Both the position numbers and the translations under genes were made by a program. The notes below the pieces were generated by a model. It was not told the origin of the DNA. It saw only the letters and a program-made list of their open reading frames with translations, and made no database searches. Of a stretch of 64,000 nt of DNA, positions 3,513 through 27,992 are shown in pieces; position 1 is the stretch's first letter, and every line of letters begins with the position of its first letter. This DNA comes from Tubiluchus corallicola (lineage: Eukaryota; Priapulida; Priapulimorpha; Priapulimorphida; Tubiluchidae): contig JAQGDQ010000303.1 in assembly GCA_030141605.1 (NCBI GenBank), positions 124,001 to 188,000 on the forward strand, given 5' to 3'.

Positions 3513-6500
3513 GTAAGTAGTTGTTATTTTTCAAATTTTGAGGAAAGCTAACAAAACAAAATTAGTGCTACCTTTCTGCTCTTCAATTTCAGATCGTAAG
3601 GAACATTTACCTAGATGAAGTCTATCATTTATGTAAGATGGAGAAGAAACAGGATGAGTGCTGGATCTAATCTGTTTTGCACCTTTATTGAATTTGTCCA
3701 ATTGTATGTGAATTTACACTACATGTAGAACTTATTTTGCCTCTGTGTTGTTATTAACAAATACTGTCACAGTGTCAGGGCCCTGCATTGAAAAATGCTT
3801 GTGCTGTGGCCAAATATAATTTTGAACCAATCAGCTGTTTAAATGAATCTAGCAGAGCATTGCAGAAAGATGTGAGTTAGGTGTATGCATTCTGTTTACA
3901 TTACAAAAAATACAAAATAAGTCTAAACTCCAACTATGTACTTCTGAGACCATATATGGGAGGTAGTCACAAGAAGTCCAGTATCTGTAATAGTCTTTCT
4001 GGCTGCGTGACTATTCACATTGCGTGACTAGAAAGTGTAGGACGGGTAGATTATTTTCTGCCTATTGTAAACAACAGGATTTATGTGAAAATTTAGTCAT
4101 TAATATTAACAGCTATACGTAAGCATTTTGGGGGAGTATTACAACTGACATCTTCATCTCCTTATTTTTCCGTATATGCATGAATTTTATTAGTATGCAT
4201 ATGAATTTGCAGAAACAAGTGAATCATTTACACTGACATTGCTTGCAGCTTGGAATCCATTCCAATTTATAATTTAGTGCAGTACGCATAGCTGCAAACA
4301 AAGTTTCTCAAAAATGGAAAAATTGTTTTGTAACTTGCGTGTGCTCTCTTTAGACTGCTGTCTATGTAAACAAGCAAAAGCAGTCATAAATCGAGCCAGA
4401 AATGTCAAACAATAAAATTGACAAATGTTAACAAATCTCAAGCAGTGTTTTTTCTGATGGCAGTCTAGCTGCTTAATGACTCTATTTTCTGCCAAAATGC
4501 TTTATTGATCAGTTTGTTCAGTTTTAGAAGGACACCTTGGCACTGCAGTTGCTGTTGTTTTCGTATGTAATGCAAACCCTGCATTTAATTGGTTTTTTAG
4601 TATTCTATCCTAGTTTATAATGTAAACATGCATATAAAAGAGTGACGATTTTTTACACTTGATCTTAGAATTGCTGTTTTAATGTAATGGTGTTTGATGC
4701 CATGCTTGGTTGAATTTGAGTTATTCTACAAAAAGAAAACGCAGATAGCATGGAACTTTCGTGGTTTGATGTACGACTAAGCCACACCTGCTATATTAAG
4801 CAATTTTTAAAATTTTGTCGATTATCTTAACCGTAATAGCTTGACCCTTGATCCTTAAATGGACTTGATCCTTAATTTATAAAGCCTTGACGGCCTGTTC
4901 TACAAAGATTGCCCACTCAGGCGATTAGAAAGATCAATGCTCAGTATTACGCAGAGTCACAGACATGATTAAATGGGCTTTTCTTAATGTGTGTTAATTA
5001 ATGTTGTAATTCTTTAGTTCAGACATCTGCGTTGGATGAACAGAGACAGCAGACATGTGTAGAAGGAGCTGCATCGTGTCATTCAAGTGCGAGATGTATT
5101 GACTACAATCCGGGCTATTGCTGTGAATGCACTGGAGACTTGTCGCTGGGAAATGGCTTTGCATGTATTGACCCAAGTGAGTACTGGTTTGGACGGAAAA
5201 CACATATTTGTCTTGAAAGCTGTTAGCTGTGAAAATTGGAGGGAATGTGATTGTGCTGTTAGGCTGCTGTGCTGTGAATGAGACTTTAAGTTTTTTAATT
5301 AAAGAGAAATGTGTATGTTCATCAGCATAAAATAAATCACCGTGGCTAACTTGACCGAAATCTGACTTGGCACCAAAGACTTTAAGTCATTCAAAATTTT
5401 TAAAAATCGTGAAAAATAGTTTTGTTTATATTTTAAAGTCTGTAAAGTAGAGTGTATCAAAATAAGCCAAGATATTAGGTTTTAGAAGTGTTTGTACGGC
5501 AATAAAAATGCAGTCTTTTGTAAGTGTGCATGTTGTGACTGTTCTGTACTGCACAGATAACCACAACCTCACCTGTTTCGAAAACAATGTAAACAGATTG
5601 CTTTTATCAGTAGCACTTCTTTGGACACATTTTCATACTGTCATCTTTTTGCTGCAGCCCCTTGCTGTGAGTGGCCATTAGCTTTGTTTGGGACGATGTA
5701 TGTAAAAACTATGGCAAAATGCATAAAATAACATAATTACTGAGCATTTGCAATATTAGTTTCTTCCATAAATGAAAAATATTAACAGAAAGCCATGCAA
5801 ATTTTGTTTCAACCACTGAAATTAGAGCAAAGGTTTTTGGTGAATGAATGAAAATCTATGATTTTCCCACCATGCCAAATCTAACGCAAAAAGTGTTTGC
5901 ACAAATAGTTAACAACTCATTTTAATTGTTTTATTATATTGACATAATAACAGAGCTTATCGTCTTTTATTTATATGTTTATTTGATTGTTTATTTATTT
6001 ATTCATAATCCTGGTTCAGCTTGTCTGGCCGATTGCTTGGTTGCCTGTGTTCTATCTATTTGTTGCTCCTCTGACAAAATTTCAAACTGATGTAAATCTT
6101 ATCAGTGCTCTGAATATACTTTTGACTCCACTGCTTTATTTGAAACTTGAGATTTTTTAGAAGTATTGTTTATTCTGATGGCTTACTGTGATTTTATTTT
6201 ATGTAGATGAACCGCAAAGAGTTAACGGGGAGGTGACTGGGAAGGTGAATGGCTATGAATTCCATGACGTTTATTTACACACCTACATTGTTACGAAGGA
6301 CAGTCGGGCGTATACAGGAATTAGCCGTTTCACAGAGTCAGTCGGACAGTCCATGACACCTGCAATGCCTGTTGCAAGCATCTATGGATGGCTATTTGCT
6401 GCACCAACTAATGAACAAGCAAAAACAGGATTTCAGCTGACTGGTGGGAAATTTAATCGCACTGCGACCATACAGTTTAACAGTGGAGAGGCGCTGCACA

Positions 6501-9500
6501 TTCGAGAGACATGCACTGGACACGATGCTTCCAATTACATGCGAGTTGCAGTGCAATTGAACGGGAATGTTCCCGAGGTAGAAGCAGGAGCACGTGTGGA
6601 GGTCATTGATTACTCAGAGATTTACAGACATATTGAGCCAGGTCAGATTTGAAAAGTTTATTCATAGCATGATTACTAATAATGTTTTGAGTTGCAATTA
6701 TATTGCATCTACATAATTTTTGATTCAATTATTTATTTATAGCATGAAGAATATTTTTTGCAGTATAGTGTGAAGTTATTAAATAGAATACTATAGAGGT
6801 ACTATAAAAGCTAAGTGTGTGCAAATTTTTTTTTAATTCTGACACGTTAAACAAGGTCTGCTTTTTTTGGAAGTACTAAAATTTTTATTTTTTGTTTGCT
6901 GGAAATGCTATTTCATGCAGTTATTATAATAATATTTAAATAAACTCAACCCATATGTATTTACTCGCATATTTTTCAGGTTTGGTTAAATCGTATGCTA
7001 CACACACATACACTGTAAATGAAAGAGAATTTAGTTACAGTGTTGATCAGACGATCAGTTTTGATGAATGCAAGTATCAGTATTCTGACTCTGATGAAGG
7101 CCTTAAGACTTTGCAGTTATCCACATCAAGAAATTTTGTCACTTATGATGCAAGTGAACAAATTTTGCGATATGTGCAAGAAACGAAGATTTCTCCTCTT
7201 GGAGGTACGTTCATGTCAGAAATCTGAATGTGGAATATTCGGCTTTTGCTCAATGACTCATTAATTATTCTCCAGCAAGAAGAGACAGTTTCTCAAGAAA
7301 AAATTACGTTTAAGCAATGTTTATATGTACATAACTTGTGTGGAAGATGTCAATGTTCACAATGTCTGCAGTACATCGATGGTGACGTTAACACTCCTAT
7401 TAGTGCTTATTATACAATTTTTGATCCTAAAGTCAGTTATGTTATTAGAAAAGCCCGTAAAATTATACACCTATAAATAGTTATGACTTGTATAACGTGA
7501 GATTAGCTGTCATGTGACTTAGCCACCAAAGTTGAGTTACACCTAATTGGTCATAGAGTGATCACGGAATGAGATAAGAATATATATGTACTCAAACACA
7601 GCTTTAGATGACACCTGCTTTTGATATCATCTACTTTCTTCAGTATCTACTTTTATCCACTACTACTTTGTATAACTGGTATAACCCCCATTTTAATTGA
7701 TAAATTCAATGTTTACATTTTTGCCAGTGTGTATATTGTTTCCTGTGGCATGTGGAAAGATTTGGAACAATCGAGTAAACACAAGAAAACCACCTGCAGA
7801 AATAATGAGTGCTGATTGATAGTCGCTTATATTCACTTGATACATTTATGGTTCTTACACTTAGTATCATTCTGCTAAAGGGCTATGATTCATCCATTGA
7901 TGAAAAATGGAATCCCTAACAGTAATATGTAATTTAATTAAGGAAATTTCAAATGTTTCACATAATTTGCATATACCAACCTCACCAACATATGTTGACC
8001 GCATTAGTAAAAACTTATCTGCTGGTTATGACGTCGCATATGCCTGGTTTTACGTAGAATGTGAGGTGAAATTTCCATTTATATCTTATATCAACATGTA
8101 GTGTCTTCCACTCTGTGGCGTCAGTAAAAATACGACAGTTTTGATTATTATCTACCACGTAATACACTGTTATAAGCTTTTGTCATTGTTGGCTTCTGTC
8201 ACTAAATTTTCCTTCATTTCATTCCTTTTTATTATTACAAGTGAGTAAAATTTTATTCATTTTATTTGTGTATCAGTAGAAATCGTTTTTATGTTTAATT
8301 TTCACAAATTGCGTGTCAAACCTAGGACTATCCTTGATAAAGAGATAGCACAACCATCTACATTATGTGAAGTCTGTAATTGAGTACTGAGTGCTGGATA
8401 ATAGCTTGTAGAACTACTTATAAACAACGGCAAAATCTCTTTGTCATTGCAGGAAAAAATGGTAGAATGCACTAAACTCTTACACTTCTGGTTCTGGCAA
8501 ATATATAATGAAGTATGACATTAGTGAACATACCAGAAACTCAAATAGTAATGAAAATTTATATCTCGAGTAGTAGTGAATTTTGCAGCAGCTACTTTTA
8601 ACCATGCTCCAAGCAAACATTTTTTGTTATCTTGTAGATGATCCCTGCCGACGTATAACTTGCCATGCAGATGCTACTTGTGTGTTAGAAGGCACCACTC
8701 CACAGTGCATTTGTAACAATGGCTTTCGAGGCGATGGCACAGAATGCTCTGGTAAATAATAAGTATTTAGTTCCACGCACAATGACATCAAAGGTTGTAG
8801 GAAATTATTTGCTTGCAATTTGTTTTTGTTTTTGTTGAATTAATGAAATGCAGTCATTAATGAATAGTGAATTAACAAGACCTTTTTCATATCAGTTGTA
8901 TATAAATCATGAAAATATACTAGAAATGCTGACGCTTTTTGTTAAGAATGCAGCTATCAGTATGTTGTAAAATCACTAAAATATATTTTTTGTTGCATTA
9001 GCAGCAGCCATCACGTGACTACTGTTGTAATGAACTAATTAACAAGAATTACTGATATAATTACATTATTTTAATCCTGCTAGATATTGATGAATGCAGA
9101 GAAAGAATTGCACAGTGTGATATACGAGCTGCCCACTGTATCAACACAGCTGGATCTTACACCTGTAAATGCATAGAAGGCTGGACAGGAGATGGCAAAA
9201 CGTGTACAAGTATGTAGCATACATAGTTTACATATCTCTTCTTTTTGCGGTGTGCGTCTTATTCGAGAAACAACACAGTATATGCTGCAGCTGACTTTAG
9301 TATTAATTAGATATGACAACCAAACCAGTGTAGCATTACAGTGAAAATACAATCAGGCTGCTTCACTTAATTGTTTTTTTGTATACAATTGATTTTCACG
9401 TATTTGTAAATACTTACTCATGTAAATCGCTTTGCTTTCCAGAAAAAGTTGAAGAGGAAGATTCTTGTGAAGATCTGGAGTGCCACGATTATGCAATCTG

Positions 9501-12500
9501 TGTTCATGATCCGGCATCCAACCAGCCGGTGTGCCAGTGCCAACAAGGTTATTTAGGAGATGGTTTCTTTTGTGCTCCTGATCCATATGGTAAGTTATTT
9601 GAATGACAAACATTAATAATTTCTAAAGTTTGCTTTTTTGACAATCATTATCAGTTATGTGAACTAGGCTATTGAAAAGCCATTTTTGCAGTGGCACTTA
9701 CTAAACTCAAGTTTTCACTTCTCATTGTTTGTAACCAATTTTTAGTTTTTTTTTACAAATAATATTGTAGAATTCTACATAAAAATGCTTGATCTTCCTT
9801 TTCACTTCTTGTAGGTGGTATTAATGGAGGTGTTATTGAGCCAGTCATTCCGGATGAACCATATGACTGTCGAGTACAGCAATTGTGTGATGTGAACGCT
9901 GAATGTATCTACGATTACGAGAACGAACGGTTCAAATGCCAATGTATGGTTGGTTATGATGGCAATGGCTTCACTTGTTCACAAGATATAACAATAGGTA
10001 CCTTATTATGTGAATATGCTTTCCTTACTTGACATTCTTTTCAAGTGAACTGGCTGATATCTTAACACTTTCAACAACTTAGCATTAACAACTTTTTGCA
10101 TGTTTTGCAATTAATTTTTACTAGGATGTAGTGGTGAGACTAAATAATCAATTGTAATCGATTTGGTCTTTTATTTCAGATCGTCGATTATTTTTATTCT
10201 GCTGCCGAAAATCATTTGTGTTACCATTACAATTTGCAACTATTTTTTCCCAAAATCCAAATAATTGCACTGCACATATAGCCATCATTGGAGCAAAGTC
10301 AAGGAAAATGGTGCTATTTTTGCACAGCAACATATCATGCTGGCATTATTGCTTAGATGCGAAGTTTTCTCGTGTGGTTTTCATGTGCTTTTTGTAAAAA
10401 CCTATAGAAATCGATTATTAAATTGGTTTTGTATCTGATTTGTCAACGAAAATGCAACTATTAATTGTTCCACCACTGCTAGAAAGCTAGGGTGTGAAAG
10501 AAATTGCACATTGTTTTTTGGCCCTTCTTTGTCAGATAGCTATGAAAGTTTGTTTCTTGTTATTAGTTTGTGTGCTAGCCTAGAGTGAGTACTAAAATCA
10601 GCACTAAAATGAAACTGCTCTTTACTGGTGTAATTTTACTGGTTCTTAATTGACCTTAAAGACATTGATCTTCAAAATCCATCTTCATTTTTGATATAAG
10701 CCATGTTCAAACATGTCTTTATGTTCAAACAGGTGCCAGACCCCAACTCTGCTTTCTGGCTACTTATATTCATTGAAATAGCAACTGCCTATTTTGTATC
10801 AGTATAATTTCTATCAAATGTGTCAGTCGTTACATAGTGTCTGTTAATGTACAAGCCATAGGTCATTGTTTTTTCCCAGTTTTTTAGCTTGAATAATTTT
10901 TTCTTTTTTATGAGGACCCTTACCACATCTTTGGTTTTTTCTGTGTAAAACACTAATTTACAATTGTTGATGTATGTCTGTAACCTTGTCTGCTGTCTTG
11001 CTTACAGCTTTATTGTTTGTTTGTGCATTCAGTCTGACTGTATATTTGATGCTTTGTTTAGTAGCTTGATTTGTTTGTTTATTATCTGCAAATGTTTTTT
11101 GTTGTTTGCTTAAATGATGAGAATTCTTGTTAAAGTTGCTAATTTTGAGTTTTTTCTTGTAATAATTTTTTGTTCTGCATGTTCATGAGCTTTCTATGTG
11201 CTTAACGCAGCCCCTCAAGAACCGTGCACACAGTGTGATCCATTTGCTCGATGTGTGTACGACGAAAATGAAAATGAACATAGGTGTCAGTGTTACCTAG
11301 GTTTCCAAGGTGACGGGACCATTTGCTCCCCTGTAAGTGGTAAGTGATATGCTTGCTGTTGTGCAGTTCTCTGTGCATTTATGTTATGTGGAAAAATAAT
11401 TTATTTTTTGGTTTTTACGCATTTATGAAGAAATGTATTTGAAAATGGCAAAAATGTATACATTTTTTAGAAAACATTTTTTTAGAAAATGAAAAAATTG
11501 AAGCAAAAGTTTGAACTATGGATCATGGCATTTCTAATTCAGAAATCTCACAGATTTGTGTGTCATTGTTCAATGTTGGTATTGTGTCCGTTTGATTCTT
11601 TACTCACAAAATTTAACTATGCAAGCATTGGTCGGCTTTTGATTTATGGCAAATATTTTTTCTAAATTATTGTCTGTTCCAAGGAATAGGCAGTAACCAA
11701 GCAATGCAAACTGTTGATGTGTAAATGGTCTCTCTTGTGTGAGAGATGAATGTTAATTTTGTGTTAATTTTCTATGTAGATTTAGCATGAACAACAAACA
11801 TAAATATACTATAAACTAATATAAATGTTTAATCTTTATTGATAATAATTACTCAACAATGTTTACAACATTTAAAGTGACATATAAAGGTAATGTTTAA
11901 GTAATCTTTTATTATAGAAATTTGACAAATTGGAAATTAATTCACTGCAATATAATTTTGCTGAATCCTTCGTTTTCTTTCTAGAACAAAGCTGTGACGT
12001 GTTGAACGACTGCCATCCAAATGCTCAGTGTTTGTGGGATACTGTTCTTGTCAAATATGTCTGCGTGTGTGGTGAAGGCCTTGAAGGAGATGGTTACCAG
12101 TGCGATTATCCTGTAGGTAAGTAATGATAGTAATGACGCACATAAAAAAGACATAATTGGGACAACATTTTGAACTGAAAAGTGTTTGAATATAACAATG
12201 TTTCAGTGATTTCGTCTCTTCTCAAAAAATCTTATATTTAGGCAAGCTTGTATACTAGAATCTTAGACTGTTAAGAATGGTAAGAGTGATATTTTCCAAA
12301 ATCGGGATGTTGTGTTCATTGCTTTTTCGTTCGTAGATGGTTACATCAACATAGTATAAAAAGATGTTTTGTTTATTGTTTCTTTCTTGCAGTATTTACA
12401 TCACCTTACTTTACAGTCAAATTCACATTTCAGTCTTATTCTTTACAGCCAAATGTAAGGCTGTCTGTATAATTAGCATGTTTGTCTGTTAGATTAGGTG

Positions 12501-15500
12501 TCTATTTGTCTGTCTGCTTATAGATAATGCACTCATTAATCAATTTAATTAGTTTAGTTTTTTGTCTGGTCATACATTCTTTCACTGAAACAATCATCCC
12601 TCGTTCTGACTATCGTTTTTATTACTTCTTTAGAATTGTCTTTGTCTAGCACATCTGAAAAATCTGGCATTTTTTATTGCAGTGTTACCACCAGATAATG
12701 GTCAGTGTGCAAAATGTCACCGCTTTGCTGATTGTTTGTATGATGAATACTATAAACGTTATTATTGTCAATGTAAGGATGGCTATAGGGGTGATGGCTA
12801 TGAGTGTGCATATGAACAAGGTATGTATTCGTCCTTTGTTCAAATCTTTTCATGTTGCAGAACTGTCAAACTGACTTAAACGTAGGTCAATGCTTAACCG
12901 AAATTAAGGCTACTATGTTTGTTGTACTGATTCATAGCAGGCTAATAATAAAAATAATAATAATAATATTGATTTAAATTCAGCTATTTGGATCAATAAT
13001 TAACATAAGCTCCAAAGAGCTTTTCGGCCGACTGTAAATAACAATCTACAATTACGTAACAGAGACTATTATTACTCCACTTTTACCCTAAATACCACGT
13101 GCCAAGCAGGGCAACACTAGGTACCATTTTTAAAGTCTTTGGTTTGGACTTGGCCGTAGTATCGAACTGATGGAAGGTAGAATGGAAAAAATGTTTTATA
13201 GCGTATTCAATACTGAAACTCAAAGAGATAATTACATGCTAAAATCAAACTGAAAACTGATTTTGGAATTTTATTTAGAATGAGAGTTTTTTAACACTCT
13301 ATAAACTCTGCAGAATCCAGGTTGAAAACATTTTGGTATTATTGTTAAATTTATCTAGCTTATGTTGTGTGCCTAGTATTGTGAGTATTGCACTAAACCT
13401 GTGTAATCTAATTACTTGTATCTGCTGGTAAAGCCAACTGCTTATAAAAGAATCAAGATTGGTTTTTAAACTTTGTAATATAATATTTGTTCCTCGGGTG
13501 ATGAGTGGATTGGCAAATATAAACAGGGCCATTCCTTATTTTGAAAAAAGATTTAAATTAATTGTATATTTTTTGTGTGATATTACTAGTAACAAAAAAT
13601 TGTGAAAGCTACTTCCTACTACTGATATATTTCTTACATCAAAACTTTTATATTATAGATTTTTTACGTAATTAAATTATAGTTTATTTGATGTCAATAT
13701 TTCAGCTGCATACTGTCTACAGGATCCAGACCCAGGTCCCTGTGGACAGCCAACAGAACGTTGGTATTACGACAAGAAAACTCGCTCTTGCCAAACCTTT
13801 GAGTATGGTGGGTGTGTCGGAAATCATAACAATTTCCAGACTCTAGAGGATTGTGAATTGCGATGTAAACCGATACCACCCCCTGAGCCACCGATTGTGC
13901 AGACATCTAGGCCAGATACAGATGGACAAACTGGTATGTGAGTCATGCCTATAAATCTGTCAAGGACAAATGAAATAGCTTTTTAGTTAACTTTTATCGT
14001 ATAACAGTGTAGTTACATTTTATGGAACTTTAAATAATTATCTATATTATGCACAGAGATCTTTATTTTGATAATAGCTTTTTTATTTCCCAAAATAGGT
14101 GAGGAACTATAAATCCGAAAATTTTAGTTTTCAAGAAATGGCATAGTTGGCTGAGAAAGAAGTTGTGCAAAAATAGAACCAGATAAATCTAGAGTAAAAT
14201 GTTTTACATATATCACCTTTGCTAATAAATTGCTGATTTAAATCAACTTACCACATGTAAAATAAAGTAACTTGCATTAGAAACAGATAAAAACTATACG
14301 TAAGCTAGTAATTGTTTGTTCTTAAATTTTGAAATGCAGAATTATTGCGAACACAGAGCAAGCAACTATATTAGCTCAGAAGATCCACTGGTACAATGTT
14401 GCAGTTTCTACATGAAATTAGTTATACAGATACCTCTTATTTCCCAAAATTTGTTATTGTTAACTAGAGATCAGCTGTGAAATCGTGAATTGTGGTGTAT
14501 TATCTATTAACATTTTTTGTGCTAATTTCAGAAGTGACTGTTTAACTGGTTTGCTGTTTTTTTATATTTGAATGAGGCTATTTATTTGCTGTTGTTGAAT
14601 TTTGCTGGATTATTGTCAGTGATGGGCAAGTTCCACAAAATGTGAACTTGTTCAAGTTCAAGTTCTTAGGAGTAAAATGAGCTTCATTTAATTTCAAGTT
14701 CCTCCCAGCCAGAATGAACTTTTCTCATATTCAAGTTCACAAGCAGGTTTTGGTAAATTTCAAGTTCCAAATTGGTTGTAGCTACCTAAATGACCACTGT
14801 TACATGTAGTTATTTTACTAAGGTTCCTTAATTCACCTTGCAAATTTTTCACCTTTGGATTTGACTAAATTTGGCTGTGTTTGGCATAATTTTATCAGGA
14901 ACTTGGCTTACAAATGGTCTATACATGTAGTTATTTAACTAACATTCTGGAATTCTCTTTACAAATCTTTCACATTTGGATTTGACTAAATCTGGCTGTG
15001 TTTGGCTTAATTTTTCAGGAACATGGCTTACAAATGGCTCCGTCATCGTCAACCCTATCTGAAGATCTTGCATATAATTTATGCCATTATTTTTCTTTTT
15101 TTTCTAATTTCTTACTTGGTAGGTGAACTTGGAAATTAAGTTCAAGTTCACCTTTTCAGTGAGCTCATTCATGTAAAATTCAAAACACTTTTCCAATAAC
15201 TGCTAAGTTTCTAAATTCCCAAAAAGTGAACGAGTTCATTCTGTCGCTGATTATTGTTGTCATCTTCATTGAGATAAATGCACAACTGAAGAGGTACATT
15301 ATTTGATTTCTTCATTTAGATGATGATGTTTGTGTTATGGATCCTGACAGTGGACCTTGCATGGCTCATTTCATTCGTTACTATTATGATCCTAGACTGG
15401 ATCTTTGCTCAGAGTTTGTTTTTGGTGGTTGTCAAGGCAACAGCAATAATTTTGAAACCATCCAGGAATGTGAAGCCAAGTGCAAAGGTATTATAACAAT

Positions 15501-18500
15501 AATAAAAACAAGAACATTCACTAAAAAATCCATAATAAGCTTTTCTGACATTTTTATTACAAGGTTCTTTATTAATTTTGTTTGTTTTTAGCATTTTTTT
15601 AAAATGTTGAACTGGTGTAAGTACAACTATGTGAGTAATCTATCTTAATTTTTAAGTTATCTTTTAAGTGTAGTAGGGAAAACGTTTCACTAAAATCAAT
15701 AATTTGCTTATAATTACAAATAGACAATCTGGAAATATATGGTGTGATTACTACAGTGTGATTACTTTTATTTATTTAATATGTAGTTGATTAAATATCA
15801 ATAAGTGAAATTAAATAAATTTTCAGCTGTGAAGAAGTCTAAGAATGTTGAAAACCTTGCTGCATGCCCCTTAGTGATTTGTAAATATTAACATGTCTTG
15901 TAATTGTGAGAACTATGTTTGACTTAAAATTTTCAGTTATCTTTTTTTATTATGCTGTCATGGTTATACTACAATGCTAACGCCATAACTCATGTAAGTG
16001 TTTTAGTTTTCCCAGATAGTAGTTTCAGTAGCATCTTTCTGATAAAATAATTTTTTGCATTTAGGTAATGGTGGTATTGATATAAGTAAACTTGCTTGTC
16101 CAGACCTTCGTTACTTGTGGTACTGTCCAACTGATGATTCATGTGAGATGGATAACCAGTGTCCACAGGGTCAGTGGTGTTGTGAAGTTCGGCCATGTAC
16201 TCACAAGATTTGCTTAGAGCCTGAGATACCTAGAGGTAATTTCACAACCTCTTGTAGAAAAATAGATGTTACAGTGTTACCGTGTAACAAAGTCTTCTCT
16301 CAAATTTATAAATTTTCTTATTATACTGTATGATTGAAAGAAGACTAAACCTAAAATGTGTTTGGAAATAATATTAGATGCTTCGTACTTTATGTTCCTT
16401 GTGCCTTGTGCTTCACCTAACTGGTCACAATTTATTGTACAAAAATACGATACTAAACAACTGGTTTTAGAGCTTTTTCCTAAACTAAATGTGGATTTTT
16501 GTTTATTAACTTAACACTTACGACTTCCATATTGTCTTTAATTTATTTGAAAGTTAAATAATCTAATCACTAATCACAATTGAACTTGGCATAGCATTCG
16601 TTCTTAATTCATCACAAAAAAATGGGAAAAAAATTCATTTTTGTGCTGAATGGTATTCACAGTGTTGTTTTCTATTGCTACTCACAGTTGCCGCTGTCCC
16701 TGTTTCGTATAGGTCCATTTAACCCTTGCCCGGAAGGTGAAGCTTTGCTCGCTCCAGGATCTGATGAATTGTTGCCATGCTCACAGTGTCCCGGCACACA
16801 TTATTGTTTCACGGAATTAGCCGATGCACCCTCTGCTTGTTGTCCTAAGCAAGATGTACCCCATAAGTTGACAGTAACATCAACTGCAGAACCACAGAGT
16901 GAGTACTCAGTTTTAGGATTTCAGGGTTTATATCTGCATTCATTTCTGTATGGAATTCCCTGCCACTAACTAAATTACAATGCTGTATAATCCGCTTATA
17001 GCAAGTTTCAAGCGACTGTGAAAATCTGCTCTATATAACTGAATCTCGTTATAGCCGAAGTGGATTGTCTGAATGTATACAAGATTGAAAAGAAGCCTAT
17101 AAGTCAGATATGATGTAGCCATGAAAAAAACACTCTACTGAGACTGGCACAAGCTTCTTAACAAGTGCCAGTGTTCAACTATTTTATCACAAAAGAATAA
17201 ACTCTTTTGTTCATACTCATTTATTTCTAGGATTATGTCAGTATTTTGTGCTGCATAAAATCGCCATGCGAGTGCTTTTCTAAGTTACCACTTCTATGAT
17301 TCATTGTGTCGCCTGCTGATAGCTGAACTTGCTTTATGTGGGTGTTACAGTAATTACATAATAATCATTTAACATCTGCCTATGATACATATCAGATGGT
17401 TACAATTCTAATAATTTTCCTCTCTCATGGAACAAGGAAAATTTAGGCATGTTGTTTGATAGACTTAGATATTATCATTAAACAGTAAAATTGCAATGTA
17501 CTTCAGTGTTGGTATCATGTTTTGACTTTAATACGATGATTGTGTTGGTGCTTTATGGATCACTCCTTCGGCAGAGCTGGAGAAAAACGTAGAAACTTGC
17601 ATTTATTAGTGATTTGCCATAATTTTGATAGTTGTGAAACAGCCATGTTAAAATTATAATATAAACTTGCAGACTGTGCAAAAACTGCAAACTGCAAAAC
17701 AAGAACATTTTCCTGAGTTAAAACACATTGGACGTTGGACACGTATAAGGAAATTATGTTATAAGAAAAACTAAAGTAATCCTACTTAATCTACTCATTT
17801 TTGTTAAAATGCTCGAAAAATTTTATTATACACTTTCAGTAGGGAATGTATGTGAACTTCCATCGGATACTGGTCCTTGTCGTGGAGCATTCCTGAAATG
17901 GTTCTGGAATAGCGAAGCTGAACTATGTGAAGAATTTGTATATGGTGGCTGCGGTGGCAACAACAACAACTTTGCTACAAAGGAGGAATGTGCTGCTTAT
18001 TGTGGAGGAGGCGAACTTGGTAAACTTGTTGTTTGTTAAGTTTTATTATGTTAGGATCGTATGAGATTAGACTATGTGATGCTGTTATGCTTGGTGTAAG
18101 CTAATTAGAGGTTGATTAAATTGAGTTAAATTGTTTAGTTAGGTTACGCGAAGGTATATAAGGTCCGGTCACAGGGAATCAGATCAGGTTATCTAAGAAT
18201 TTATTCATATTATGGTTTAGTACTGTGACATCTGTACAAGCTGTTTTGCACTAAGACTAACCAGCTTCTCTTAATATTTAATATAAGAAATTTATTCGTG
18301 AATGCACATCTGGATGGACCTTCCCTTGTGAATTGAAAGCATCAGCATTGTTGATCATTTTTGAAGTGATAGATGCGATTATTTATTAGGCACTCTGTAG
18401 ATTTAGATTCAGCACATAAAATTCCGCCTTGTCAAGGCGTTTTTGAAACCATTTGTAAACTTGTTTTTACTTTTTAATAAGTCTTGCCAATTACTTGTTA

Positions 18501-21500
18501 GAAGTAAAGTAAACTGTCCTCAGAAGTAAGATGCCGTACCATCTGGGAAACAGGTCAGCATATCGGCTGAGACACTTTCCCTTATCTTGCTATAAACAAG
18601 TTGAACCAACATTAATAGTATATGTTTGTTCAATTTACCATCCACTATACTTGATAGTAACTTATGTAAATTAATTTTTAATATTTACTTTAGTCAACTT
18701 CAGTTGAATTCAGATTCAAGCTGGATTATTGTGGTTAATTGCTTTCCCTTGTTTTAGACGTTTGTAAATTGCCGGCAGAAATCGGACCATGTCGAGCCAG
18801 GGAGCAACGATGGTATTTTAATTCAAACTCTGAGCAATGTGAACAGTTTGTCTTTGGTGGCTGTCAAGGCAACCAAAACAACTTTGCTACCCACGAGGAT
18901 TGTCTTGCCAGATGCGGAGGTATTGTTTTTACAATGACACTAACTGGCTTGAGTTGGTACCTTTTAACTGTGGGGGCCACAATAATAGTGACAATCTCTT
19001 GATTGCTGGTTTATGATATTTGGACATCAATAAAATTTGATGTTGTTAATTCCTATTTTTTTGTTTTTATCTATTAAATTTTTAATGATTCGGGATTTTC
19101 CTAACTCTCATAATATTTTTTTAAGATTGCTTCACTAAATTAAAAATGTGGAGTAACATGCGATATCCAGTCAATTGAGTCTAGTTTTCTAGAATGAGAC
19201 GGTGCAACATTTATTAATTTGAATGCAAAAAATAAAAATTAATAACTTAATTAGGATTATAACATTGAAACATAGAAACATGAAAAAGCAGATCAGTTAA
19301 TTAGCCAAAATGCTTAATATACAATTATCGCATTCAATTATAATTATAAGTTTCTTTACTGCATCTTTTGTGAAATGCATAATCTGAATCTGCATTCAGT
19401 AGCAGAGTTTTTACACATGTTGAGTGACTTTTGGTTATTTCTAGTGTCAATTGTATGATCGCATTTCCCAAAAATAATTATTTCTGTGCTTGTAAAATGC
19501 ATGATCTGCATCTACATTCAGCAGCAGACTTTTTTACGTATGTTGAGTGAATTTTAGTTATTTTAGTGTCAATTACACGATCATATTCACAAAAATTATT
19601 ATTTCTGTGCTGATAAAAACTTGAAATAAATTTTAAAAGTTACTTTGTAGCTAAACAATGAACAAAGTTTGCATACTAGGTCAACTAATACAATAGGCAT
19701 TGCGTTTTGTAGGACAACATTGAAAGTGAAATTGTTTTCTTGCTTGAGTCAACATAGTGTATATTGATTCTTATACCCAAATGTATTGTGCTTAAATGAG
19801 CCGGTGCCCAAATGCTCGCATTGAATTTTCTCCTGCCCAAATGGTCTGTCCCCTGTGGAGCAATACTGCAATTACTTGAAAGCAAATACACCACTGAACA
19901 AAGTTTCAAGGTGAATATACTTTGAAATTTGGAACTTGTTCGGTGAATGTGAACCATTGAGTGGTAAAATTAACTTTTGTTTAGCGTAAGGTATGATCTT
20001 CAGTTCCTAATTTGTGCTGCACTATGTGACTGTTTGTTTGTCTAGTTTTTCACTTTTAGTGTAAACGTATGAAAGTTCGTAACTTGAAACCTCTTTTGCT
20101 ATTACATTTGCCACTGTTGCAGGCATTTTAGTAAAACAGAAACATTGATGTATGTGTATATGAAATTTCAAAAATTAGTTATCAAGGATTGTTAATCAAG
20201 TCTAGATACATGAGAATTATGCCAATCACATATTCTGTTTTGTAAATCTTAATTTGTAATAAAAACATGGTTTATTAATCTAGTGTTGCCATGAATGGCT
20301 GACTAGCTACCTGGATTGCTAGACTGGTAGTTTGACTACCCGTTCTTATAATTGGCTTGCTTGCTTGATTTATTTAATCCTTACTTTTTATTGTTTAGCA
20401 TTGTAACTTTATTCTTTTTATTTACACATGCGTACAGGGCCAGCTCTGACTTGCAATATCATCAACATTTGCGACTTCAATGCAGAGTGCATATACAACT
20501 TTGATGAAGCAAAATATGAATGTAAATGCAATGAAGGTTTTGAAGGCGATGGGCTCAATTGTGAAGATGCCCGTAAGTATTTTTCTTTCATGTTTTAAAC
20601 TGCCATTAATATTTTTTGTAACATAAGAATTGTTTTTAATATCACAGCCTTTTGGACAGTTAGTTCACTATAGTTATATACTTTTAATGTATACTCAAAG
20701 GTAGTATGTTATATTTTTATAACTATTTGTTGCTATGTCAAATATGTACAGTATAATTGACTCAGCTCAAATTGGTTTATCTAGTAAATACAGTAGATAT
20801 TTGATAAAATGTTCAATTTGGTTTTCATTATTAAATGTTTGAATGTCTGAAGGATGAGCAGTTTTTTATAGTAGTTTTTAAATAATGATTTTTTTCCTGT
20901 ATAGGTACGTGTAACGAAGTTCCTACCATGTGTGATAACAATGCTGACTGTGTTCATGATTCGTCGTCAGGCTCATATATCTGCAGGTGCAGACAAGGAT
21001 ACAGAGGCAATGGTCTTCAGTGTAGATGTAAGTGCCCAACCTTGTTCTGCAACACAACTGAGCATCATAATCGTCATCATTGGCACTGAATACTTTCTTG
21101 CTGTGTGTCTCTACATCAACACTGAAAACACCAAACAGGGAATATATATATATATAACATATCAACAATGTACTTAGTTTAACTTATTGTAGAGTTTTTT
21201 TGATAATATTAATATTTTGAACATGTAAAAATAATGCTGACTTTTACTCACGAGACTGTTCCATTTTTGTGTGAATAATTTTGATTTTGTTTTGAAATTC
21301 TGACATTGTAGTTAACTAAAAAGAATACTGAGGAGTTATGCATTCTTAACAGGTTATTTCCAACGTTATGGCATAAAATTGTTTTGGCCTTTTTTTAATA
21401 CTGTGTTTGAGGTGTATTTATATACAGCTGTACTTCTTACAGTGGCAGATTATTTGGAAGGACAATTTCTCTTATATGGACATGGCATGTCTGTCATGCA

Positions 21501-24500
21501 AGTACCATTTGATGCGACACTAGAAAATAGAGGAAAGCAAGCTGTTATGGTACCGGTAAGAGTTGTGTTATCCATTTTTACATTTATGTCTGTTGATTAA
21601 TTTCTGTTTTTTGCAAGTCTTATAACTGATTAATTAACATTTTGCAGAAATGATGTAAAGCAAACAGCAGTTTGTATAAAACTGGTGTTTATTTACTAGT
21701 CCTGATGCATTTCCTGCCGAAGCTCATTGTCACAAACAATTATAGTAGAAAGATCTATGACATTAGCTTCTATAATCTATATGATGATTTCCTCTATCTC
21801 TGTCCATCTCCTATCACTGTTGGTGAGATGTCCAGAGTGATTTATCGTGATACACGTGCAGCCTATGAAACTGTTTACATGGACCAAACCAAGCACCATG
21901 TCTCCATCAGGATTATCGAGTACGCATAGAGCTTCTTGTTCCAACTTCATCAACTATGTAACACTTTAGATACAGTGGGTTTAGTGGCCTTACTTATTAT
22001 CAAATACCAGCTGTTATTAAATACCCAGGATACTGCCAGTCAACGTTCACGTACTCTCCATGTCTGTGTCATTGTAGACAGTAAACCTGATTAAAGGTCA
22101 GTTTTGTACAACCACGTATTTGTCATCATTAGAATTTTTTGCTAGTAATGTTGTGATTAGAAACTACAGTATTTGTTTGCGAAAAGAAAATTTCCTTTGA
22201 CAATGTACCTTGGCAGGAAATGCATCATGATTGGTTAACAAACACCAACTTTATATACATTCCTAGAAAGTGGGTTTTTGCTATAATTACTTTATGAAGA
22301 CTTGCTTGTCTCTGCATGTATGATATAAAAAATTAATAGTTTTTTCTCTATTTCGTATCTGAGATATGATGCATGATTTTTCTTTAAGGCAGTTCACTTG
22401 AATTGTGACTTTTTAGTAATTAATCTTGCGCTAACCATAAAGCAAAAAGCTAGATCACCATGAATTAACAGTCTTTCGGTTGTTTATGGTGATTAACTAT
22501 AGTCTTATAACCGCAAGTGTACAGCGAGCAGCTTTTGTCTAGCTTTTTGTGGCTTCTTTCCATAGGGTTCAATAGCAGTTGCTGTAGATGCCGACTGCCA
22601 AGATCGTTATTTCTACTGGACGGATGAGGCATCTGGGAGCATTCGTAAGGCAACATACGATGGTGAAGATGAACGTGTTGTTATTAGTGGTAATGAGGTT
22701 TATTTCAATTCTTAGTTGACATAATGTGGTCTTGATGTATATTATATATTTTTTTGTTTTTCGTTATTGTGAGAGCTCAACCTAAAAATATGTTCCAACA
22801 CTGTTTTTGAAATCCTTAAGGAACGTATTGTTGTTTTTACTTCACCTGTGACCCTGAATTTGCAGATGTACTTAAGTTTTTCAAGTCTTTTAAAGGAGAT
22901 TGGAAATGTTAAAACATTATACTGGATCAACTCAATTTTGCTAACAGAATGCTGTTAAATCATATTATTCACTAAACCAAGGGGCAAATATAAAATTATA
23001 ATCACATAAATTTCAACATATTATTGATTTTACACACCCATTTCACAATTGTTATCGATCATCAGGAACTACTAGGAAAATTCACCAAACCACCAATAAC
23101 AGTTATTATTGTTTTCAATTAAAGAAAGACTATTCCAGCAATGATATTCTGATAAATAATACCTTGATTGTTTCAGAGTAGACTTGAAAGAAAAAGCCAA
23201 TTTTGTTAAGTTTTTCATAATAAAATGTTTGTTTTGTTTACAGATTTTGGTACACTATTGTTTTTAGCAGTTAAGCTAATGTTCTTTGTTAGCATGTTTC
23301 ATCTGTGAGTTGACATTATTTTGCATGCAGCTAAGCAGCAGTATTTCTAATTCTTTTAAATTGAGATCTGGATGTCAGTGTTTTGTTTGAATTGCATATG
23401 TCCTGGTCTTACAAGCATAAGTGAATTGTTTTTTGTTACCTGAATATACTAAATGCCTTTTGAAAACATTGTTGCATCTGCGTTGCATGGGAGTGATATC
23501 AGTAAAATTTTGAAGTGCTATTATTGTTCAATATTAAACATTTTTATTTTTGTATATTTTATAAATAATGCTAACAAGGCAATCTACAGTGCACATTCTG
23601 TTGTTACAATTAGTTATCAAATCTTTTTTAGGTCTTGGTTCACCAGAAGGTTTATCAATTGACTGGCTGTCCAGAAACATTTTTTGGACTGATTCAGAGT
23701 ACGATAACATTGGCGTGGCTCACTTAGATGGTTCTAATCGAAAAAGTCTCATTGATGAAGATTTAGTTAATCCCAGAGGCATTGCCGTTGATCCGTATAA
23801 AGGGTGACTAGTAATTTTGTTTATAAGTTACTATAAAAGCAACCCTCATGATACATTTTATGTACTATTACTTGCCATTTGCCAACAAAAATGTTTTTTC
23901 TTCATACAACTTGCAACAAATAAGGTCAGAGCACAACAAAAATGAATATTCCATAAGAAAATATCTAAAGTAAATCATCTTCTGCATCTTCTTCATCTAT
24001 CAAATTTCCTGTGCAGTTTTGCTGTGTGCCTGGTTTTTCGATATGATCATTTACAGAGGACAATGTATATTCCCTGTAAAATATTGACCTTGAAATGATA
24101 GAGAAAGAATATGATTTTTCTGTTAAGTGGCTTAAGGTAAAAGCTGTTTTATTTTATCTTAATCACAGGCGTATGTATTGGGCAGACTGGAATCGTGCTA
24201 AACCGAGGATTGAAACTGCTTGGATGGATGGCAGTAACAGAGAAGATTTTGTTAATGAAGGACTTGGACTACCTAATGGACTGACAATTGATTTTAACAA
24301 TGAGGAATTGTGCTGGGCAGATGCAGGTATTGCAGAATGCACCTTTGTGAACAGTGCTTTGACTACATTAATTTTCTTTTGTTAATGATATTATACTATA
24401 AGTGTATGTTAGTGTTTCATTGAGTAAATTATGTTTTAACAATAAGTAACATGTACAACTTTTCAGCTATGCTATAAGGCAGATTTTTTTGCTCATTTGC

Positions 24501-25372
24501 ATTTATGTAAAAAATTTAATGCCATATAGGTACACACAAGATTGAGTGCATTGGCTTGGATGGTAATGGCCGACGTGTTGTTTATGATAATGCTGAATAT
24601 CCATTTGGTCTCACAAATTATGGTGATAATTTGTACTGGACTGATTGGGATAAGTATGTTAATTTATTTATCACATTTAGATTTATTTAGAAGTCAAAAG
24701 AAATTAAATTTTCTATGTTTTCTTTTGCATATTAAGAAATTCACTTTTTAAAATACAGAATTTACTTAAAAATCAGAACATTACGCAAAATGTGATAAGA
24801 GCATAACATTAATGAAAGTGCAATTAAGAAGTGAATGTACATGTATATCAGCATATATACAATGTTACTGATGAAGTAAAGATTTGCACCTTTTTGAAGG
24901 GATTATATTTTGAGTAGTGTTTATATTTATCAAACTAACTTTTTCTGTGAACATTGTTTTCCAGTAAAGAGATTAATAAAGTCAACAAGTTGGGTGGATT
25001 GTGGTCATTCTTAGATGTACGACCGCTGGGAGGAAATGGTCGCCTGTATGGCATAGTTGCTGTGACTGCAACCTGTCCACGAGGTAAGTAAGTCAGGCTC
25101 TTAAAATCCATTGATTTTTGTTGACTAGTTATTTTCTTGTCACGCCTTGTGAGATATGTGGCATTGGGATAATGATACTTAGTTGTGATCTTTTATCAGT
25201 GCTTGTGCACAATCTTGTACATTTATTATGCAAACATTCATTTTTTTCAGCTATTAATGCTTGCGCTCAAAGAAATGGCAACTGTGACTTCCTTTGCGTT
25301 CCTACTCCTGGAAATGCAAGAGCGTGTTTGTGCCCTGACAATGAAACAAGTTGTGAGAAATTCAAAAAATAG
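1881..25372 (+). CDS. NID: Nidogen-like basement-membrane protein with Kunitz/WAP/lustrin insert (5' partial, 29 exons)
   Basis: Extracellular-matrix glycoprotein; nidogens link laminin and collagen IV networks in basement membranes. Coding exons read as 1881-2017, 2285-2426, 3044-3255, 3415-3512, 5018-5176, 6207-6641, 6980-7204, 8638-8751, 9084-9209, 9443-9589, 9815-9997, 11211-11339, 11985-12116, 12683-12820, 13706-13933, 15320-15487, 16065-16235, 16713-16898, 17840-18019, 18758-18919, 20438-20572, 20905-21027, 21443-21555, 22566-22689, 23632-23803, 24169-24326, 24530-24653, 24965-25083 and 25251-25372. All junctions are GT-AG, the phases agree throughout, and the total is 4662 bases (1553 residues plus stop TAG). 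The order NIDO-EGF-G2F-EGFs-propeller-EGF is the nidogen signature. Vertebrate nidogens have thyroglobulin type-1 repeats before the propeller; none is visible here, and a block of protease-inhibitor-type domains takes that position. The start codon is not seen. Calling it a nidogen is secure; laminin binding is inferred from the family. Confidence 0.93.
5018..5176 (+). CDS. NID: EGF-like domain 1 of the nidogen-like gene
   Basis: One phase 1-1 exon containing the six-Cys run from [15 protein letters not shown] to YCCECTGDL and GFAC. The paired Cys in YCCEC is typical of the first nidogen EGF, directly before G2F. Acceptor choice is forced: using the later CAG (ending 5022) would give an in-frame stop. 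The 1.5-kb intron before it and the 1-kb intron after it hold no recognisable element. Confidence 0.88.
6207..7204 (+). CDS. NID: G2F beta-barrel domain exons of the nidogen-like gene
   Basis: Exons 6207-6641 and 6980-7204, both phase 1-1. The first begins [15 protein letters not shown] and continues with [40 protein letters not shown] and [10 protein letters not shown]. The second has [20 protein letters not shown], then [10 protein letters not shown] and QILRYV. This is the G2F (nidogen G2) barrel, which in mammals binds perlecan and collagen IV. Its length, about 220 residues, matches the family. No residue-level claim about ligand binding is made. Confidence 0.93.
8638..9209 (+). CDS. NID: EGF-like domains 2 and 3 (domain 3 of calcium-binding type)
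   Basis: Exons 8638-8751 and 9084-9209, each one EGF and each phase 1-1. Domain 3 begins DIDEC and has the [12 protein letters not shown] core, which matches the calcium-binding EGF consensus (D-x-D/N-E, the Asn in the middle, then an aromatic). Domain 2 lacks that N-terminal acidic motif, so only domain 3 is expected to bind calcium at its N-terminus. Confidence 0.9.
9443..12820 (+). CDS. NID: EGF-like domains 4-8 (five one-exon domains)
   Basis: Exons 9443-9589, 9815-9997, 11211-11339, 11985-12116 and 12683-12820, all phase 1-1 and one six-Cys EGF each. Each ends in the G(D/N)G-x(2)-C turn usual for nidogen EGFs ([45 protein letters not shown]). Domain 5 carries a short Gly/Pro linker ([16 protein letters not shown]) before its first Cys. 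The 1.2-kb intron 9998-11210 has no recognisable repeat. Confidence 0.9.
12943..13180 (-). repeat. Truncated tRNA-derived SINE, minus strand, in a nidogen intron
   Basis: On the minus strand this contains a B-box-like GTTCGATAC near 13157-13168, a body with GTAATAATAGTCTCTGTTAC and TTGTTATTTACAGTCGGC, and an (ATT)n tail at 12943-12970. The same blocks occur in the same order in the + strand element at 36915-37204. The 5' tRNA-like head is degraded or cut off here. Confidence 0.7.
13706..15487 (+). CDS. NID: Kunitz domains 1 and 2 of the nidogen-like gene
   Basis: Exons 13706-13933 and 15320-15487, phase 1-1, each with the six Cys and the YGGC/FGGC and NxNNF signatures of Kunitz/BPTI inhibitors. 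The residue after the second Cys (P1 in BPTI) is Gly in domain 1 (GPCGQP) and Met in domain 2 (GPCMAH), so neither has the basic P1 of a trypsin-type inhibitor. Domain 1 is followed by a Pro-rich linker (PIPPPEPP). Known for the family: Kunitz domains bind serine proteases or act as structural modules in matrix proteins. Which applies here is not shown. Confidence 0.92.
14617..15249. mobile_element. Non-autonomous hAT-type element (MITE) in the nidogen intron
   Basis: Ends CAGTGATGGGCAAGTTC on the left and (reverse-complemented) CAGCGACAGAATGAACTCG on the right, flanked by a perfect 8-bp direct repeat ATTATTGT at 14609-14616 and 15250-15257. An 8-bp duplication and CAG-type ends are the hAT signature. 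There is no transposase ORF. The interior contains a direct duplication of about 120 bp (about 14797-14917 and 14918-15042) sharing GGATTTGACTAAAT and GGCTGTGTTTGGC. Confidence 0.85.
16065..16235 (+). CDS. NID: WAP-like four-disulfide domain of the nidogen-like gene
   Basis: Phase 1-1 exon with eight Cys in WAP order: [33 protein letters not shown]. The CC pair and the C-x(5)-C-x(n)-CC spacing match whey acidic protein cores, which are often protease inhibitors or antimicrobial modules. Spacing near the first two Cys is slightly non-canonical, so 'WAP-like' is the safer name. Confidence 0.75.
16713..16898 (+). CDS. NID: Lustrin-type cysteine-rich domain of the nidogen-like gene
   Basis: Phase 1-1 exon encoding [23 protein letters not shown] and APSACCPK. 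The pattern C-P-x-G, then C-x(2)-CP, x-Y-x-C and a terminal CCP matches the lustrin Cys-rich repeat found in molluscan shell lustrin and in many invertebrate WAP/Kunitz proteins. A Thr/Ser linker follows before Kunitz domain 3. Confidence 0.7.
17840..18919 (+). CDS. NID: Kunitz domains 3 and 4 of the nidogen-like gene
   Basis: Exons 17840-18019 and 18758-18919, phase 1-1, each a full six-Cys Kunitz domain ([14 protein letters not shown] and [14 protein letters not shown]). Unlike domains 1 and 2, both have Arg at the P1 position (GPCRGAF and GPCRARE), as in trypsin-like inhibitors. This pair resembles each other more than the first pair, suggesting a later duplication. Confidence 0.92.
19020..19862. 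repeat. Dispersed repeat in the nidogen intron, related to 56515-56830
   Basis: Two blocks of this stretch recur near 56.5-56.8 kb: ATTAAATTTTTAATGATTC with following sequence (19075 onward versus 56639 onward), and CATTTGG-type units (about 19790-19860, inverted relative to 56520-56590). It also holds a tandem duplication of about 120 bp (about 19377-19497 and 19498-19613) sharing TCTGTGCT and AGTGTCAATT. Probably an old non-autonomous transposon; its ends are not resolved. Confidence 0.45.
20438..21027 (+). CDS. NID: EGF-like domains 9 and 10 of the nidogen-like gene
   Basis: Exons 20438-20572 and 20905-21027, phase 1-1, one EGF each ([12 protein letters not shown] and [12 protein letters not shown] ends). 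They separate the Kunitz block from the propeller and use the same GDG/GNG turn as domains 4-8, so the inserted inhibitor block is bracketed by nidogen-type EGFs on both sides. Confidence 0.88.
21443..25083 (+). CDS. NID: YWTD (LDL-receptor class B) propeller exons of the nidogen-like gene
   Basis: Exons 21443-21555, 22566-22689, 23632-23803, 24169-24326, 24530-24653 and 24965-25083. Blade motifs in order: [24 protein letters not shown] with [32 protein letters not shown] with [32 protein letters not shown], and a closing [17 protein letters not shown] and WMDGSNR match nidogen propellers closely; in mammals this domain binds the laminin gamma-1 LE module. Phases are mixed here, unlike the upstream region. 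Confidence 0.93.
25251..25372 (+). CDS. NID: C-terminal EGF-like exon and stop of the nidogen-like gene
   Basis: Last exon, entered in phase 1. It encodes [20 protein letters not shown], then ACLCPDN, and ends SCEKFKK with TAG at 25370-25372. Nidogens finish in the same way with an LDLR-type EGF after the propeller and a CxCPDN motif. Confidence 0.9.
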
Positions 25373-25877: not shown

Positions 25878-27239
25878 TCAATCCATTTTTTATAAATTTG
25901 TTATCTTGTTTTTTTAACATTTCATACAAGTGTGTTTGCAGTAGAATCCTTACATTTTAATGGTCTAGTGGCTGGTTGAAACTCTCCTCCCAATTTTTTA
26001 GCCAAAGTTTTAGCCACAGCTGTATTTAAATGAATTTATGTTAATAGCCATTGAAAGCAGGTCAGTGTGCAAAGGTAGTTATTTTTGCCAAGAATTTCGC
26101 TACTTGATATTTTCTTTTATGTAATGTAAGTGCACCCTGCATAATACATTTTTTAACGTATTGTCCAGCATGTTATAACGCCCTAGCTTCTCTACATTTT
26201 AAATACAACGATTGCACAAGTCATCCGAAGCATGCAGAATTTGGTTGCTGTGCTACAGCTTTACAATTGATGTATTATCCCATAGCCTTATAAATTAGAC
26301 AACATTCCTTAGCAACAGGTACCATTCATCTGTAACTAAGCATAGCATTGATGACTTAAGCAGATGATGTCATTAATAATGGTGATGGCGATGTCACATG
26401 TAGAAGTGTTGCCTATCAACCGTGTCTAGTTTCCCACAGTGAAACTTCAACTTTGGTAGCTACTGCACGTCTTTTGTAAACTAGGTAAGTGGGTTCGTAA
26501 GTAAATCTTTTTTTTGTTAATCTTTGGTTTTGCTCATGTGAAATTGAATGTGCAATCATTATTTCGAAATGAAAAAAATCACATGCGTAGGTTACCAAAG
26601 ATTGGAGAGGCTCCAATGACATAATGGGCATTTTCTGAACCTTAGGAATGTTTTTGCTTCAGATGTCTTTAGTATCTAAACATATTTTTAAATGATTCTA
26701 ATGTGCTGATAAGGTGAGACACTGTGTCTTAACCATGTTCAGATGCGTAACAGTCAGAATCAGTATGACGAATGATGGTTATGCTTATGGTAACTCTGGA
26801 TGAAGACATCTCGCCCAGAGTAAGTATTGGACTTGACAGCTATCCATTTATTCACTGACCAACATCAACATTGCTTACGCTGGACAATTGGCTGTTACCC
26901 TGTTCTGCATGCTCGGGAATTCCACTTGTTTGTGGCACTTGTACACAAAATTTTTAGATGATTTTTTCTAGAATTGTTGGTGAACTTAACTAGGTAAACT
27001 CTCGTGTCAATGATTTTGTATCTACTACCTTTTTTACAAAATATTTCATAAAAGACAAGAATCATACTGAGCAACAAGGTTAGGTATAAAAGTACTAACT
27101 GTGGATTAGGTGTATGCAAAGATGTTGTACAGCCATTGTTTTAACAGATGGCCAGACACACTTTTTCACTCATTTGAATAGTTTTATGCAAGTGCAAAGC
27201 CAATATAAAGCCAATCGAAACATATAATTTTTTGCAGAT
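25878..27239. other. Intergenic stretch between the nidogen-like gene and the MSP-domain exon
   Basis: No exon, repeat or RNA gene recognised on either strand. It must contain the start of the MSP-domain gene or an intron of it, because the acceptor-like TTTTTTGCAG ends directly before that coding exon. Confidence 0.4.
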
Positions 27240-27245
27240 CTTGTA

Positions 27246-27992
27246 ATGGACGGAGACATACCTCCTATTATCAGTGTCCCTCAAGCTAATGTTTGTGTCT
27301 CCTCAAAACCAAGAGTGCCACTGCCAAATGTTTCTACGTGTGTCGCTGGACCATTACTCACCCTCAACCCAGGACGTCAGCTAGAGTACCGAAGAACCGA
27401 TCCCTCGCAAGAAGCTGTAGAAATTTTGAATCTGTACAATACAACTGATAAGTTTGTGGCGTATAAAATAAAGACCAACTCATATGACAAATTCCGGGTC
27501 AGTGGAGGCACAGGTAGAATTGGTCCATACGAAACGGGGCAAATTACCATAACTGTGTTCCCCTACGTTCAACTCTCACCCAAGGATAAATTTGTCGTTA
27601 TGTCAATGGCAGTCGGAGGGAATGTACAGACGCCGGTCCAACTAGCAGCGGCATGGGAAGTGGAAGGAGCAAATATCCACAAAAACAAGATCTTCTGTCA
27701 TATGCATCCACCAAATGGAGAAAAACATTATATAGCAACATTCAGGCTACCCAATGGTAACAGTCTAAAGGTGAACACTACAATTCTCAATCCAGATAAA
27801 AGAAGGATTGTGATGGCATATACAATGTTGATATTTGTGACAATTCTCGTGATGAGTGTTTGTTTAAAAGCCTTTTTCTCTCTACAGTGTAGGGTTGGCA
27901 ATTATCATTTGACACGACAGTTTCCATTTTTAGAATGTGGTATGTCGAGCTATAACATGCCATATGTTTACATGCCACCAATGCCAATATGA
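27246..27992 (+). CDS. MSP-domain (VAP/MOSPD-type) membrane protein
   Basis: Open frame of 248 residues with a major sperm protein (MSP) immunoglobulin-like domain at about residues 37-125 (LLTLNPGRQLEYRR, AVEILNLYNTTDKFVAYKIK, YDKFRVSGGTGRIGPYETGQ, KDKFVVMSM). MSP domains of VAP and MOSPD proteins bind FFAT-type motifs at ER contact sites. A hydrophobic stretch at about residues 189-212 could be a membrane anchor, followed by about 36 residues ending in a Met/Pro-rich tail. A perfect acceptor (TTTTCTCTCTACAG, ending 27889) lies in the frame, so the anchor-coding part might instead be an intron. A second acceptor sits just before the ATG (TTTTTTGCAG ending 27237), so an upstream exon is likely. 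It is convergent with SPATA17. Confidence 0.7.
   Translation: MDGDIPPIISVPQANVCVSSKPRVPLPNVSTCVAGPLLTLNPGRQLEYRRTDPSQEAVEILNLYNTTDKFVAYKIKTNSYDKFRVSGGTGRIGPYETGQITITVFPYVQLSPKDKFVVMSMAVGGNVQTPVQLAAAWEVEGANIHKNKIFCHMHPPNGEKHYIATFRLPNGNSLKVNTTILNPDKRRIVMAYTMLIFVTILVMSVCLKAFFSLQCRVGNYHLTRQFPFLECGMSSYNMPYVYMPPMPI

Follow-up and report, generated by a model that had tools for sequence, protein, structure and literature searches.

A predicted block of protease-inhibitor-type modules in the rod of a nidogen gene from the priapulid Tubiluchus corallicola

In the nidogen family the G1/G2 domains bind collagen IV and perlecan whilst the propeller binds laminin, and the rod of the vertebrate proteins carries a thyroglobulin (thyropin-type) module, with the thyroglobulin repeat directly adjoining the propeller. 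Nidogen is part of the conserved toolkit of basement membranes, with a domain make-up that has been called highly conserved (PMC10972974); thyroglobulin type-1 (Tg1) domains are missing from the single nidogens of Drosophila and C. elegans, as a 2024 review states (PMC10972974), and likewise from the single nidogens of echinoderms (survey, PMC10381214), and the literature consulted for this comparison describes neither Kunitz nor WAP nor lustrin modules in any of these. Modules of these types are present in papilin, which belongs to the basement membrane and has numerous Kunitz domains, joined in protostomes by a single WAP domain (PMC3160391; PMC3427181), in the multi-inhibitor protein MLT-11 of C. 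elegans, which combines lustrin, Kunitz and Tg domains (PMC13181417), and in WFIKKN/GASP, in which a WAP and two Kunitz domains were brought together by exon shuffling and which, unlike nidogen, is linked to the control of myostatin activity and is no basement-membrane linker (PMC3427181). Here we describe a stretch of 64,000 nucleotides from the priapulid Tubiluchus corallicola (assembly GCA_030141605.1, contig JAQGDQ010000303.1, positions 124,001 to 188,000; referred to as the window, whose numbering is used below), in which a nidogen gene carries six exons for Kunitz-Kunitz-WAP-lustrin-Kunitz-Kunitz modules between the eighth and ninth EGF domains of its rod.

The block consists of six successive exons on the plus strand with AG/GT borders, each entered and left in phase 1, which encode 365 residues in a stop-free frame between EGF8 and EGF9. 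The first exon encodes a Kunitz domain with a Pro/Thr-rich linker (K1, 13706..13933; Kunitz_BPTI 4.3e-21), in which the P1 residue, read from the sequence, is Gly; it is followed by a second Kunitz domain with Met at P1 (K2, 15320..15487; 6.5e-21), a WAP domain with eight cysteines (16065..16235; Pfam WAP 9.5e-5, and 3.4e-7 with a profile made from the WAP domains of contig C2314), a lustrin-type cysteine-rich domain with six cysteines (16713..16898; Lustrin_cystein 4.3e-5, and 3.3e-8 with a lustrin profile from the same genome) and two further Kunitz domains, both with Arg at P1 (K3, 17840..18019; 2.4e-21, and K4, 18758..18919; 1.2e-21). All four Kunitz domains exhibit six cysteines at Kunitz spacing and score 74.7–77.1 bits against a Pfam cut-off of 21, which is far beyond chance, and the scores of the other two modules are good: the WAP exon reaches 23 bits, above its cut-off of 20.8, and the lustrin exon, which at 24.2 bits lies under the Lustrin_cystein cut-off of 27, is 42–49% identical, with all cysteines aligned, to 11 lustrin repeats found elsewhere in the genome. 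An AlphaFold model of the lustrin exon based on 12 sequences displays a small beta hairpin (pLDDT 73), whilst a model of K3 from a single sequence (pLDDT 50) is uninformative. The first-pass annotation of this DNA had placed an in-phase block of six exons at 13706-18919 between EGF8 and EGF9, and our analysis bears out its coordinates, borders and frame; the module order was reproduced exon by exon with Pfam, together with the own-genome profiles for WAP and lustrin, and in the gene model the frame runs intact over both outer junctions, 12820/13706 and 18919/20438.

The host gene is a complete nidogen of 30 exons and 1617 amino acids with canonical borders throughout and a lone stop codon (TAG, 25370-25372). 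It occupies part of the window and 2.6 kb of upstream sequence: 10 kb 5' of the window was added in order to reach the missing first exon, which encodes the signal peptide together with the start of G1 and lies 2.55 kb before the window start (-2552..-2361). The remaining exons, all on the plus strand, encode the NIDO domain of G1 (1881-2017, 2285-2426, 3044-3255 and 3415-3512, assigned by Pfam NIDO, splice sites and phases), EGF1, which falls within the G2 fragment when aligned to the nidogen-1 structure 1GL4 (5018..5176), the G2F beta-barrel (6207-6641 and 6980-7204), EGF2 to EGF8 as seven phase 1-1 exons (8638-8751, 9084-9209, 9443-9589, 9815-9997, 11211-11339, 11985-12116 and 12683-12820; EGF_3), then, beyond the block, EGF9 (20438-20572; EGF_3 3.9e-8) and EGF10 (20905-21027), and finally the LDL-receptor class B propeller (G3) with the C-terminal EGF (21443-21555, 22566-22689, 23632-23803, 24169-24326, 24530-24653, 24965-25083 and 25251-25372). 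The NIDO match covers the Pfam profile in full (8.1e-63, residues 62-244 of 1617), G2F is matched by Pfam at 8.3e-57 and by 1GL4 at 5.4e-46, EGF_3 is found eight times, and the propeller matches LDL-receptor class B at 2e-28 and the nidogen structure 1NPE at 7.8e-71; these three domains are thus as canonical as had been proposed. The protein therefore exhibits what places it among the nidogens, namely NIDO, G2F and an EGF rod followed by an LDL-receptor class B propeller and terminal EGF, and it shares with vertebrate nidogen-1/-2 the whole succession of signal peptide, NIDO, EGF, G2F, EGF rod, propeller and C-terminal EGF. TSP1, ADAMTS spacer and PLAC domains were not found in it by Pfam, and papilin, which has these and Ig domains, in turn lacks NIDO, G2F and propeller. 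A search of the genome (343.5 Mb in 2344 contigs) revealed no second nidogen: the sole other place with G2F has exons for thrombospondin type-1 and EGF domains around it and resembles hemicentin, so the nidogen is apparently single-copy. Other NIDO places (C1408, C2262 and C2307) showed no Kunitz exons within the stretches read; the one at C1408:233000-247000 appears by eye to combine NIDO with many cysteine-rich EGF-like and chitin-binding-like exons, an unusual NIDO architecture. In the intron between K1 and K2, a 121-base unit is present as a tandem pair (87%; 14801-15037).

One claim of the earlier annotation was not supported, namely that the block stands in place of thyroglobulin repeats. 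Pfam detected no Tg1 domain in the nidogen protein, including directly before the propeller where vertebrate nidogens carry it, and of 79 Tg1 matches in the genome none lies on the nidogen contig (C1883); the six other modules found here sit two EGFs before the propeller, these two EGFs separating it from K4. Since the Drosophila, C. elegans and echinoderm nidogens are Tg-less, there was probably no Tg present to replace, and we prefer to see the block as inserted into a rod that had no Tg repeats.

That the block belongs to nidogen at all might be questioned, as the six exons would also make a self-contained inhibitor protein and animals have nested genes: a separate Kunitz-WAP-lustrin gene could lie on the same strand within the EGF8-EGF9 intron. 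Read-through of the K4 donor (18920-19002) would even add 28 residues with a short hydrophobic tail before a stop; by the same token, intron retention after K4 would end nidogen in this tail, which is probably due to chance. However, the acceptor before K1 and the donor after K4 are both in phase with the flanking nidogen exons, and the interval 12821-13705 between EGF8 and K1 contains no signal-peptide exon with a phase-1 donor: the best hydrophobicity there is 0.83, compared with 2.88 for the real signal exon, whilst the higher values reached in other introns (2.49 at 12364, 2.41 at 24337) indicate the chance level in this gene. As the EGF8-K1 intron thus offers no usable signal-peptide exon, we regard a nested gene as very improbable. 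Even less credit is due to an assembly artefact in which an inhibitor gene was wrongly joined into the nidogen intron. It is true that the assembly has 2344 contigs and some duplicated stretches (e.g. on C1518), but two misjoins would be needed, both within introns and matching in strand and phase; across the region GC content stays level at 0.32-0.35, and the block occurs only once in the genome, which together make such an error extremely unlikely.

Turning to the source of the block, a search of the genome with its sequence returned, after nidogen itself, contig C2314 as the top match, with contiguous matches to lustrin and K3 in three exons (51-53% identity, ~1e-23). When a C2314 WAP exon and the next lustrin-Kunitz exon were joined by eye, they aligned colinearly with nidogen WAP-lustrin-K3 over 181 columns at 41% identity (6e-37). 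This contig carries, at C2314:66000-151000, either one very large gene or a gene cluster of Kunitz, lustrin, WAP and Tg1 modules, in which lustrin-WAP repeats number in the dozens. A WAP-lustrin pair from a second contig, C1961, aligned with nidogen at 5e-16; it belongs to a minus-strand gene with the order Kunitz-Kunitz-WAP-Tg1-antistasin-WAP-lustrin x3-Kunitz-Kazal repeats (C1961:552000-560700), in which six inhibitor classes (Kunitz, WAP, Tg1, antistasin, lustrin and Kazal) are present in apparently one protein. Neither multi-inhibitor gene displays nidogen domains in the stretches read, and prokaryote genome contigs, searched for relatives as a contamination check, yielded none. At the sequence level these alignments show the core to be homologous to other inhibitor genes of the genome, and because the module order is common to three genes, one transfer of a ready-made array, or a few, is to be preferred over six gains; the block is thus probably not the product of six independent events. 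Kunitz exons elsewhere in the genome are mostly phase 1-1 and hence insertable into an EGF intron with the frame preserved. From this we infer exon shuffling and its direction: phase-1 shuffling would have moved an inhibitor array into the nidogen rod between G2 and G3, the donor of the array, or at least of its WAP-lustrin-Kunitz core, being a multi-inhibitor gene of this genome similar to those on C2314 and C1961.

Two other sources were considered. Recent tandem duplication of one Kunitz exon was rejected, given that K1-K4 are about as distant from each other (47-57% identity for the pairs measured) as from Kunitz domains elsewhere in the genome (53-63% for the best matches) and are not grouped by a tree. 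Papilin is disfavoured as donor, since the WAP-lustrin-Kunitz unit matches C2314 and C1961, and the WAP-lustrin-K3 core is nearer to the C2314 gene than to any papilin-like sequence compared; the papilin-like contigs (C419 and C1518) were recognised from just two features, an ADAMTS spacer and many Kunitz domains. On one of these, C1518:1-24000, Kunitz exons are arranged as mirror-image pairs whose scores are identical (e.g. 1997-2152 minus and 17551-17706 plus), which looks like either an extensive inverted duplication or a fold-back of the assembly within the papilin-like gene.

Overall, the explanation that we favour, with a confidence slightly above even, is that a bona fide nidogen gained an inhibitor array by phase 1-1 exon insertion and that this array would guard the basement membrane, as the first-pass annotation had tentatively suggested. 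The protein would be secreted into the basement membrane, where the contacts of G1/G2 and of the propeller would fix the array at the node of the laminin and collagen IV networks. The reactive loops of K3 and K4 start with GPCRG and GPCRA, respectively, and Arg is also the P1 residue seen most often when 33 Kunitz domains were sampled across the genome (13 with Arg and 7 with Lys, together 20/33); judged from these residues, K3 and K4 are predicted to inhibit trypsin-like proteases, whilst K2 perhaps inhibits an elastase- or chymotrypsin-like protease and K1 is probably not a classical inhibitor. K3, K4 and perhaps K2 would inhibit serine proteases in the standard Kunitz manner, and such local inhibition would slow the cutting of nidogen and adjacent matrix, thereby protecting the latter. 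In Drosophila nidogen shields collagen IV, the turnover of which is faster when nidogen is lost (PMC10972974), and cathepsin S cuts nidogen-1 with loss of binding (PMC3429489); these observations make local control of proteolysis at nidogen plausible.

Several points weigh against this explanation. With Gly at P1, K1 is unlikely to act as a classical inhibitor, and many Kunitz domains of matrix proteins are non-inhibitors; cathepsin S is a cysteine protease, whereas serine proteases are the usual targets of Kunitz domains. A tree of individual Kunitz domains, with too few columns to name a donor, does not group the four with any single one, and the presence of the block in the mature nidogen is a prediction from the gene model. 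The main alternative, to which we assign a clearly smaller though still appreciable likelihood, accepts the same architecture and supposes that the modules have lost inhibition and serve as structural spacers or protein-binding units, lengthening the rod or binding matrix partners. The P1 residues of K1 and K2, the weak Pfam matches of WAP and lustrin, and the fact that many matrix-protein Kunitz domains have no known protease target are all in keeping with it; on the other hand, K3 and K4 retain the GPCR-G and GPCR-A loop starts and all six cysteines, where erosion might be expected at 41-60% identity to relatives.

The exon phases bear on a further possibility, which is compatible with the favoured explanation of an inserted inhibitor array: the block may be alternatively spliced, yielding nidogen with, without or with part of it according to tissue or stage. 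From EGF2 to EGF10 fifteen exons in a row, the six of the block among them, are symmetric 1-1, so that any subset of these six could be spliced in or out with the frame kept. Alternative splicing is reported for Drosophila papilin, which is comparable as a protein of the basement membrane (Kramerova et al. 2003, listed in PMC3160391). Symmetry is, however, usual for exons of extracellular modules and by itself no proof of alternative splicing, and we consider this possible but somewhat doubtful. More tentative still is the wider proposal that the only nidogen of an invertebrate clade serves as an anchored Kunitz/WAP inhibitor carrier at the laminin-collagen IV node, its composition tunable through splicing of symmetric exons.

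In keeping with the first-pass annotation, which knew of no such nidogen, searches in the full text of open-access papers found none described as carrying Kunitz, WAP or lustrin modules, although such a protein may already be present in databases, unremarked. An inhibitor array inside nidogen would mean that even a core basement-membrane linker can be rebuilt by exon shuffling, and such a nidogen offers a direct test of whether a matrix-fixed inhibitor slows basement-membrane turnover. Together with the Tg module of vertebrate nidogens, the array suggests that two lineages may independently have put inhibitor-type modules into the nidogen rod.

Elsewhere in the genome, contigs C859, C2307, C1755, C2138 and C1730 contain giant unbroken frames, between 1954 and 6684 codons long, in which Tg type-1 domains are interspersed among numerous WAP repeats; these are apparently single-exon giant inhibitor proteins. 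The homeodomains of the genome include Hox genes with a posterior class and one homeodomain that a UbdA-like peptide follows, which we read as a protostome trait, whilst COX1 and innexin searches returned no match. Within the window, broken frames on the minus strand at 33528-34161 resemble, by eye, a Tigger/pogo-type DDE transposase, and a frame at 27228-27992, which lies 1.9 kb past the nidogen stop on the same strand as nidogen, resembles, again by eye, a protein with a major-sperm-protein/VAP domain and a hydrophobic segment at its C-terminus.

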